From a virus: a DNA stretch of 32,699 nucleotides. A model generated the notes under the pieces. The model worked only from the letters and a program-made list of their open reading frames with translations. It made no database searches and was not told the DNA's origin. Of the stretch, positions 13,440 through 14,724 are shown piece by piece; position 1 is the stretch's first letter, and each line of letters starts with the position of its first letter. The translations under genes were made by a program, and so were the position numbers. The stretch is from the IMG/VR virus record IMGVR_UViG_3300032309_000130, positions 1 through 32,699 of that record. One strand, written 5' to 3'.

Positions 13440-13803
13440 AGCTTTTCCTTAATTCCGCAAGTTTGCGTTTAGCTTCTGCAACCACTTCAGGGTCAACAGG
13501 CTTGGGATTGTAGGTAATCTGCTGTTCATCACGCGGGATAGCTGGCCCTGCATTGCAAAATTCCCTAAACCTGATGGCGCTTGGCGGGAAATCCCCATTT
13601 AATCGGGTAAATGCATAATCAAGGCTTGGCTTGTATGTCAAGAATCTACCAATTTGGTCTTTCCATATCTGCCGCACAACCTCCAAATCCATGCCCTCCC
13701 AGTTGCGATTAAATGCCTGACCATATATGCCGCCTAGCATCACAAAAACGTAATCAAGACCTTGATCAACATCAACAAAATCAGCTTTTGAGTAATTTGA
13801 CAT
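13429..13803 (-). CDS. Helicase loader-like replication protein (lambda P type)
   Basis: A 124-residue protein is read from ATG 13803, preceded by GGAGGAGG; the in-frame ATG at 13818 would place this site inside the gene. The core DYVFVMLGGIYGQAFNRNW, VRQIWKDQIGRFL, YAFTRLNGDFPPSAIRFREF and the C-terminal helix match short phage proteins annotated as replication protein P. These bring the host helicase DnaB to the origin. It follows the initiator gene with a 23-base overlap, as in O-P pairs. The assignment is by pattern and position. Confidence 0.72.
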   Translation of the reverse strand: MSNYSKADFVDVDQGLDYVFVMLGGIYGQAFNRNWEGMDLEVVRQIWKDQIGRFLTYKPSLDYAFTRLNGDFPPSAIRFREFCNAGPAIPRDEQQITYNPKPVDPEVVAEAKRKLAELRKSYES

Positions 13804-14440
13804 TGCTGCCTCCTCCAATAAGTCCGCGAGTTAAGCCTGACATGACCGCTTGATTCATTTGCCCAGTTTTGGTTAAGTTTTGTTTTTCAGCAACCCATTC
13901 AGCCTTAAAGCCGCGCCATCCCCTTGCTGAACATTCAGCCAATGCTTGTTCAAGTGTCCAGCCTGCTTTATTGGCTTCACGCTGAATTGACTTAACCACG
14001 GTTTCGGTAATCACTGCTCTGCTGGCTTTTCGTTGGGCAACAAAAGAATCCCAAACTTCGGCTGATACGCCGTTAGGCGCTTGCATCCTCTTTGTCTCTT
14101 TCTCTTTATATGTCTCTGTCTCTGTCTCTGTCTCTAGACCATCATCTTGATATCGTTCTGATATCGCGTTGATATCATCTTGTTCCAGCCAGTGAGACAG
14201 CTTGTTTAAGCAATCAATAGTTTGCTTTTCTGACATTCTTAAACGAAATGCAAGTGTTTTAGTTGTTGGGATATGCCCATCTTCTTCACTGGCTATAAGC
14301 CAACACATAACAAGCACTTTGCTGGCTTGGGCATCCAATTCATGCCAATCAATATCGTCAAGCAAATCCCTGTACAGCTTAACCCAAGGTGGTTTCCTAT
14401 CCTTGAAGTGCTGAAATTTATTCCAGTTCTTTATCTTCAT
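13781..14440 (-). CDS. Replication initiator with DnaT-like C-terminal domain
   Basis: The 219-residue protein has an N-terminal winged-helix-like part (WVKLYRDLLDDIDWHELDAQ, HIPTTKTLAFRLRMSEKQTI). A charged linker encoded by DNA repeats follows (about 96-115, ETETETETYKEKE). The C-terminal domain, VWDSFVAQRKASRAVITETV with GWTLEQALAECSARGWRGFKA, matches the DnaT-type DNA-binding domain of phage initiators. It likely binds the origin and starts DnaB loading with the next gene. The repeats within the gene may be that origin, as in the lambda O gene. The start ATG 14440 lies ten bases after the U run of the structured RNA. Confidence 0.82.
   Translation of the reverse strand: MKIKNWNKFQHFKDRKPPWVKLYRDLLDDIDWHELDAQASKVLVMCWLIASEEDGHIPTTKTLAFRLRMSEKQTIDCLNKLSHWLEQDDINAISERYQDDGLETETETETYKEKETKRMQAPNGVSAEVWDSFVAQRKASRAVITETVVKSIQREANKAGWTLEQALAECSARGWRGFKAEWVAEKQNLTKTGQMNQAVMSGLTRGLIGGGSNVKLLKS
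14111..14134. repeat. Four tandem copies of TGTCTC inside the initiator gene
   Basis: TGTCTC is repeated four times without change, within a pyrimidine-rich stretch on the plus strand (about 14093-14135). It encodes the (Glu-Thr) repeat of the initiator linker. Copy number could vary by slippage in steps of two codons without loss of frame. It lies 14 bases from the GATATC repeats and may be part of an origin. Confidence 0.85.
14149..14176. repeat. Three GATATC palindromes at 11-bp spacing, candidate origin iterons
   Basis: GATATC begins at 14149, 14160 and 14171, so copies are one helical turn apart; two of the three are preceded by TT and two are followed by G. They lie in the linker-coding part of the initiator gene. 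Origins made of short repeats inside the initiator gene are known from lambdoid phages. Use as an origin is inference. Confidence 0.55.
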
Positions 14441-14448
14441 TTTTTGCC

Positions 14449-14532
14449 CAAAAAAAAGGGCTACACCTGCTGTCTCACCCTTGCGGATGTTGGCGGACTG
14501 GCGTAGTACCAGCAGACAGCATGTGTAACCCT
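14449..14532 (-). ncRNA. C4-like antisense RNA with intrinsic terminator
   Basis: Read on the minus strand, a 19-position stem (14532-14514 with 14475-14457) has 18 pairs including one G-U and a single A-G mismatch. It encloses a 4-bp hairpin with a 7-nt loop UACUACG (14512-14498), a linker containing CCGCCAA (14496-14490), and a 5-bp hairpin with a GCAA tetraloop (14489-14476). Eight U follow (14457-14450). The G-U pairs exist only in minus-strand RNA, so that is the transcribed strand. Loop and linker are complementary to two boxes just upstream (14532-14538 and 14546-14552). This matches the architecture of phage C4 RNAs (P1, P7), which silence genes on their own transcript. It lies between the cro-like and initiator genes, where lambda has tR1. 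Confidence 0.75.
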
Positions 14533-14552
14533 ACTACGATTAACGCCGCCAA
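14532..14552 (-). promoter_or_regulatory. Putative C4 target boxes a and b
   Basis: In the minus-strand transcript this stretch reads UUGGCGG (14552-14546), a 7-nt spacer, then CGUAGUA (14538-14532). These are exact complements, in antiparallel order, of the CCGCCAA linker and UACUACG loop of the structured RNA just downstream. Pairing would form an alternative fold across the end of the cro-like transcript. Confidence 0.65.
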
Positions 14553-14565
14553 GCGTTTCAAAAAA

Positions 14566-14724
14566 TTATACAACAAACCACTCAGGGCGCAAGTCTTTAA
14601 GCTGGCGCAACCTTAATTCGGGGATTTTTTCTTTCCATTGGCACACCGCTGGCTTGGAAACACCTAATATTTTGGCAAGCTCACTCTGTGATCCTGCAAG
14701 TTTGGTAAGTTCTTGTTTAGTCAT
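14566..14724 (-). CDS. cro: Cro-like repressor (P22 Cro family)
   Basis: A 52-residue protein with a compact helix-turn-helix: TKLAGSQSELAKILGVSKPA followed by VCQWKEKIPELRLRQL and DLRPEW. The QSELAKILGVSKPAVCQWK core and KIPELR after it are diagnostic of the P22-Cro family. It diverges from the plus-strand operon across a 148-base control region with two palindromes, which it probably binds to regulate itself and the early genes. The best -10 box ends six bases before ATG 14724, so the mRNA may be nearly leaderless. No partner CI-like gene was found. Confidence 0.88.
   Translation of the reverse strand: MTKQELTKLAGSQSELAKILGVSKPAVCQWKEKIPELRLRQLKDLRPEWFVV

Follow-up and report, generated by a model that had tools for sequence, protein, structure and literature searches.

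C4-type antisense RNAs have been known so far from temperate phages and satellites, in which they serve as an immunity device. Members of the Rfam C4 family are expected to be processed RNAs of roughly 77 nt with action in trans. In P1, C4 is an antisense RNA that acts on the ant mRNA (PMC12197685). The annotated c4 region of P1 holds two target boxes upstream of C4, a1 (TTGACAG) and, after 7 nt, b1 (GTTAGTG), with a2 and b2 downstream, and the C4 RNA itself has a loop, UCACUAAC, and a linker, CUGUCAA. The Rfam consensus places the parts of the C4 junction in the order stem, tetraloop hairpin, box hairpin, linker, stem. The CI RNA of P4, the C4-family match in X51522, controls the P4 replication genes through premature termination (PMC4825925), and IsrK of Gifsy-1, a leader that ends at a terminator, switches on its own readthrough mRNA in trans (PMC4825925). 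In open-access full texts, we found no description of the element reported here, a rearranged form that is missed by the Rfam models and stands before replication genes in about 200 environmental phage sequences in which lysogeny genes are almost undetectable.

The window, by which we mean the whole stretch of DNA that was analysed, is a 32,699-base IMG/VR virus record containing portal, terminase, major head, holin, and tail genes. Its minus strand encodes a C4-like RNA element at 14557-14450, a predicted three-way-junction RNA, sited between a P22 Cro-like gene and an O-like replication gene on the same strand. The features of this region are listed below in the direction of transcription.

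14566-14724, minus strand: upstream P22 Cro-like gene, 52 aa (Pfam P22_Cro, 42.4 bits, above the cut-off)
14587-14592, minus strand: possible -35, TTGCGC, a weak sequence match (3/6) with a spacer of 16 nt
14565-14570, minus strand: -10, TATAAT, of the element's putative own promoter, at the 3' end of the cro-like gene (6/6 match)
14542-14557, minus strand: target hairpin AACGC-UUGGCG-GCGUU, whose loop presents the linker-complementary box (double changes in 4 of 5 pairs; 99.2% of cells paired)
14546-14552, minus strand: target box TTGGCGG (P1 'a' type), exact complement of the linker at 14496-14490 (five compensatory versions in 202 copies)
14532-14538, minus strand: target box CGTAGTA (P1 'b' type), complement of the loop at 14508-14502 (double changes in 6 of 7 pairs; 39 distinct sequences)
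14514-14532, minus strand: 5' strand of the closing (terminator) stem (fold; double changes in 12 of 17 scored pairs)
14497-14513, minus strand: box hairpin GCUGG-UACUACG-CCAGU (fold and alignment; frame identical in P1 C4 and invariant in 74 aligned copies, in part by selection, since the frame was in the pattern-scan queries, a bias from which the protein-found set is free)
14490-14496, minus strand: linker antisense box CCGCCAA (covariation, box versions)
14476-14489, minus strand: GCAA tetraloop hairpin CATCC-GCAA-GGGTG, 3' of the linker (double changes in 4 of 5 pairs)
14457-14475, minus strand: 3' strand of the closing stem (fold and covariation)
14450-14457, minus strand: U8 tract of the predicted intrinsic terminator (sequence; in most copies, 8-14 nt lie between its end and the start codon)
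13781-14440, minus strand: O-like replication initiation gene, first after the terminator, with its start codon at 14440 (phrog_678, E = 4.4e-19; phrog_26426, E = 1.4e-15)

The protein matches at either side bear out the original prediction, made from the letters of the window, that the RNA lies between a Cro-like and a replication gene. A short tandem repeat of the TCTCTG type within the minus-strand replication gene (window 14104-14138) encodes TETETET between the N- and C-terminal parts of the protein. Upstream of the element, a -10 match of at least 5/6 was found in 159 of 195 upstream regions compared to 54 of 195 shuffled ones, mostly 10-13 nt before the target box, and in the window 12 nt separate the end of the perfect TATAAT from TTGGCGG. 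The -35 signal across all copies is just modestly above that of shuffled sequence, and the TTGCGC of the window was not listed by a generic promoter scan.

The minimum free energy (MFE) fold of the minus strand is a three-way junction of -42.1 kcal/mol with a z-score of -5.5, and none of 200 shuffles was as stable; the plus-strand fold is weaker (z = -3.2). All of the parts described in the original prediction are present on the minus strand, as read base by base, and its 18-pair closing stem agrees exactly with the MFE fold, in which 10 and 8 pairs flank one mismatch. The hairpin loop has the predicted 7 nt when the U-G closing pair is left uncounted, but 5 nt in the MFE fold. Because of the covarying hairpin at 14557-14542, the element starts about 5 nt earlier than had been proposed. 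The closing stem together with the U8 tract is, according to the folding model, an intrinsic terminator, and its position and form fit the tR1-like terminator that had been suggested, with the U tract fused to the RNA. The short stretch separating the U tract from the start codon (window 14449-14440) often complements the end of the terminator 3' strand, a possible ribosome-site switch; many copies have such complements (GCCC-U8-GGGC, GCUUUU..AAAAGC, GGUUU..AAACC) and many do not.

The element was found as 203 distinct sequences in IMG/VR. For the first set, relatives of the replication protein were searched, giving 80 phage loci obtained without using the RNA, about 50 of which have the same element directly before the gene. 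Pattern scans widened this protein-found set to the 203 distinct elements; E-values and counts throughout take related sequences as separate. In 74 aligned copies, 98.1% of the pair cells are standard pairs, double changes occur at 26 of 45 pairs, and 341 cells are changed on both sides compared to 70.8 ± 9.4 in shuffles. The covariation score for the same copies is 0.344, against 0.142 ± 0.004 when shuffled and at most 0.077 when partners are slid by 1-3 columns.

Both box pairs covary. Double changes are present at 6 of the 7 positions of the loop-box pair in the aligned copies. The linker box was fixed in the first pattern and was later left free or requested in other versions; once it was free or varied, the upstream box was seen to change together with it. 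The target/linker versions are TTGGCGG/CCGCCAA (117 copies), TTGACGG/CCGTCAA (37), TTGGCAG/CTGCCAA (34), TTGGAGG/CCTCCAA (13), and TTGGTGG/CCACCAA (1). A chimera, L456, joins target box TTGGCAG to linker CCGTCAA, which are of different types and pair imperfectly, and may have arisen by recombination between specificities. In 183 of 202 copies, the loop box finds a complement of 6 nt or more in its own leader, but this holds for only 12 of 202 when the loop is taken from another copy, and 49 distinct box combinations occur among the copies. Pattern matches that lack a U tract behind them are mostly chance matches in coding DNA, and the target box is almost never present in them. Since 203 copies keep both boxes complementary through compensatory change, the element is not a product of chance. 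The covariation check on homologues that had been set beforehand is thus passed by both box pairs (six of seven loop pairs, five linker versions), and with both 7-nt pairs exact in the window, the proposal of a C4-like anatomy with two target boxes is upheld.

The loop-box pair is also the fastest-changing paired region among near-identical copies, with 5.1 changes per column compared to 0.5-3.0 elsewhere and 21 double changes (the sequence pairs are not independent), and the loop box differs in 8 of 38 pairs of first-gene proteins that are at least 95% identical (related pairs, again not independent). The loop of the target hairpin keeps UUGR, a sequence of the YUNR U-turn type, across all box variants. 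A UUGGCG loop motif is found in the Inc RNA control of ColIb-P9. YUNR-type loop sequences speed the contact between antisense and target RNAs (PMC8464778).

The new element and P1 C4 are both three-way junctions with a hairpin-loop box followed by a linker box, and in both, the targets precede these boxes within one transcript, the linker-complement coming first and the loop-complement 7 nt after it; the spacer between TTGGCGG and CGTAGTA in the window is likewise 7 nt. The core CTGCTGG-N-CCAGTC-NNN-CAAC is exact in the two RNAs, and the P1 stretch CTGCTGG-N11-CCAGTCTGTCAAC, which fits the invariant frame, is found at C4 and nowhere else in 49.8 kb of P1, and in none of 100 shuffles. At the level of sequence, this shared core argues for a common origin or strong functional convergence. 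However, in all aligned copies, the junction runs stem, box hairpin, linker, tetraloop hairpin, stem, so the claim that P1/P7 C4 RNAs are built in this way fails in the strict sense, the order of the hairpins being permuted. The box labels given with that claim were also inverted, since P1 usage calls the loop box 'b' and the linker box 'a'. Further unlike P1 C4, the closing stem of the new element doubles as a predicted intrinsic terminator, there is no icd/ant operon, and a second target (a2/b2) over the ribosome site is missing; its one target is its own leader, which is the sole two-box site in the window.

A search with the Rfam C4 model (RF01695), the check originally proposed, gave no match in the window at the gathering threshold (45 bits) or at E ≤ 10 and none in any of eight further loci whose copies are divergent, while the positive controls P1 and P4 scored 68.8 and 74.9 bits. 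Membership of Rfam C4 was, therefore, rejected. The c4-a1b1 family (RF03163) was rejected as well, with no match in the window at E ≤ 10 compared to 51 bits for the P1 control; the window has target boxes equivalent to those of c4-a1b1, but within a different hairpin. A covariance model built from the new element, R1, did not find canonical C4 in P1 or P4, which is consistent with a permutation. A DicF-like alignment in the window (13.4 bits, cut-off 48) was rejected, as it consists of the TTGGCGG/CCGCCAA pair. Judged from its sequence, the new element is a rearranged relative of C4 and is not filed as a C4 member.

The likeness to P4 CI RNA lies in a leader-encoded RNA, putatively antisense in the new element, an upstream target (seqA), and phage replication genes (PMC4825925), and the new element has both a leader before phage replication genes and a predicted terminator. 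P4 differs in its second target downstream (seqC) and in that a longer leader is processed to give CI RNA; its linker sequence is unrelated to that of the new element, and its core also differs. P4 is an integrating satellite, whereas the carriers of the new element are almost without integrase. The contrast originally drawn, of a replication initiator in place of an antirepressor, thus stands as to placement but not as to novelty, since P4 CI RNA already controls replication genes (PMC4825925) and made this logic known; what sets the element apart is its architecture, the fusion of a terminator to it, and the phages that carry it. IsrK (RF01394) is similar in being a terminated phage leader RNA that is also the leader of a readthrough mRNA, and is unlike the proposed element in activating translation of an antirepressor operon; isrK membership was rejected in the absence of any sequence or model match in the window. 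The pT181 repC attenuator shares the opposition of antiterminator and terminator, the leader position before a replication gene, and a loop-initiated RNA-RNA contact (PMC3753616; the comparison draws mainly on general knowledge). Its antisense RNA comes from the opposite strand, whereas here the terminated sense leader would itself be the antisense agent, and no homology is claimed.

The first gene after the element belongs to one replication superfamily cluster in 137 cases. Other first genes encode a 249-aa replication initiator, a 752-aa primase (L401), and a few HNH/GIY-YIG-type nucleases and ParB-like proteins. In 31 copies, the first gene encodes a member of a 70-84-aa protein family (MLKFQ..EGCEAFI..GCLVIKQ) that has no PHROG match (e.g., L124, L095, L194, and L507). 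All 39 long records (39/39) have one element each. A tyrosine integrase was detected in 1 of 73 element-bearing records, the contig of L521, although many of these records may be incomplete; P1 and P4 were positive as controls. Serine recombinase, S24 repressor, rve transposase, and ParA were found in none of 39 records, and the record of one carrier, a circular genome of 34.7 kb submitted as complete, has no annotated integrase. A scan of 84,980 species genomes gave 85 pattern matches, and the whole element was present only in L234, a betaproteobacterial MAG contig, which hints at a betaproteobacterial host for the carriers. Among named phages and plasmids, the element was found only in two records from one spring metagenome; it was not found in plasmids, and two other variants used as query gave no named-phage or plasmid match. 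By their gene content, the carrier phages look virulent, so lysogen immunity is not a likely use, and the prophage side of the immunity role once suggested for this RNA is unlikely in phages without lysogeny genes. Because the element is widespread in environmental phages with no sign of prophage ability, its role is probably to restrain replication or competing phages, not to serve the upkeep of lysogeny.

We consider it probable, with moderate confidence, that a permuted C4/CI-type antisense leader attenuates transcription of the replication operon and that the terminated leader acts in trans. Structure and covariation are computed results; transcription, processing, action in trans, the sign of the effect, and a role in copy number or superinfection are inferred. 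A short transcript would have its start at the target hairpin, and while the leader is being made, the two upstream boxes would pair with the loop and linker boxes in one nested helix, which is possible in the same RNA because the upstream and antisense boxes are in mirrored order. By trapping the 5' strand of the terminator stem, this helix would act as an antiterminator, and RNA polymerase would reach the replication gene. With the boxes unpaired, the three-way junction would close, transcription would stop at U8, and an RNA of about 105 nt showing the loop and linker boxes would be released. The released RNA would bind in trans to the boxes of the next leader being made, so that the antiterminator could not form and transcription would have to terminate. 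More genome copies would then give more terminated leaders and a lower output of the replication gene. An incoming phage with the same boxes would also be shut off, with the box sequence setting specificity and the 49 box combinations amounting to specificity groups.

Co-transcriptional MFE folding of the window gives the nested box helix at about 70-88 nt and the terminator thereafter. Of 150 copies, 142 are predicted to switch in this way (mean span 19.8 nt), compared to 36 of 150 with grafted boxes of another type, while the full-length terminator fold is obtained in 149 of 150 native copies and 148 of 150 with grafted boxes. For the complete transcript, the terminator is favoured over the antiterminator fold by about 18 kcal/mol, so readthrough would need kinetics, a pause, or a factor. 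The first genes of replication type, including several families and the L401 primase, count for an attenuator of the replication operon; the operons that open with small uncharacterised or HNH/GIY-YIG-type genes count against it, as does the single target, the element's own leader, which is unlike P1.

The chief rival to action in trans is attenuation purely in cis, in which the box pairs would be the antiterminator helix of one RNA and speed, a protein (e.g., the Cro-like one), or translation would decide termination. We regard this as unlikely but by no means negligible, given that nested box helices and terminator are predicted to be mutually exclusive and to switch during elongation, that boxes and antisense boxes are always on the same RNA, and that there is one element per genome, with one target in the window. 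Covariation at the box pairs fits pairing in cis or in trans alike. The trans step is favoured by the covarying UUGR hairpin loop around the target box, which a purely cis helix would not need; holding the 5' box in a conserved hairpin would hinder cis pairing and suit intermolecular contact. By analogy, it is also favoured by the likeness of the boxes, in order and spacing, to those of P1 C4, whose action on the ant mRNA is established. The behaviour of the loop box points the same way, as it diversifies faster than the other paired regions yet stays complementary, and near-identical first-gene proteins occur with different boxes.

A classical prophage immunity RNA of the P4/P1 kind, by which a lysogen would silence lytic functions, its own and those of incoming relatives, appears improbable. 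P4 CI RNA does this to replication genes (PMC4825925), the box specificity resembles immunity groups, and the L521 contig has an integrase, but this is the only tyrosine integrase in 73 records (many may be incomplete) for which P1 and P4 served as positive controls, none of the four other lysogeny or partition markers sought appears in the 39 records, and 84,980 species genomes hold one true element. We give still less weight to activation of the IsrK kind, in which the short terminated RNA would pair with the readthrough mRNA and turn translation on. Gifsy-1 IsrK provides a precedent (PMC4825925), and the start codon is close behind the U tract, with the intervening bases often complementary to the 3' stem strand; however, this complement is missing in many copies, no consistent helix hides the ribosome site, and no IsrK match was obtained. 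A plain tR1-like terminator with fortuitous box matches would account for the strong stem and U tract in the cro-O interval, but deserves almost no credence, having already been refuted by the compensatory changes that both box pairs show across about 200 copies.

Returning to the attenuator acting in trans, we suggest tentatively, with somewhat less than even confidence, that these permuted C4-like RNAs, carried by phages that appear virulent, make up a large class not described before, combining copy-number-dependent control of replication with RNA-level exclusion between co-infecting phages and having diversifying lock-and-key boxes with dozens of non-interfering specificities. If so, phages that cannot lysogenise would time their replication or block rivals much as plasmids control their copy number, through an RNA attenuator, and the box sequence would predict which phages interfere with each other. 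The roughly 50 box combinations present in nature also lend themselves to tests of orthogonal RNA regulators.

Other leaders precede the same replication gene. A different structured leader of about 100 nt is present in L042 (2900-3003), L045, L047, L055, L058, L062, L078, L021, L022, and L034, with the pattern GAAACxCGGCTAGGTTGG...CCAACCGAAAAG...CCACCCC...GCCGxxGTTTC...GGGGTGG and no Rfam match. Compensatory changes occur in two of its helices, and a third, crossing helix seen by eye (CCACCCC/GGGGTGG, ACTCCCC/GGGAGT, CCCACCC/GGTGGG) suggests a pseudoknot. In L041 and L044, the leader is of yet another kind, with a hairpin resembling a terminator at most 150 nt before the gene.
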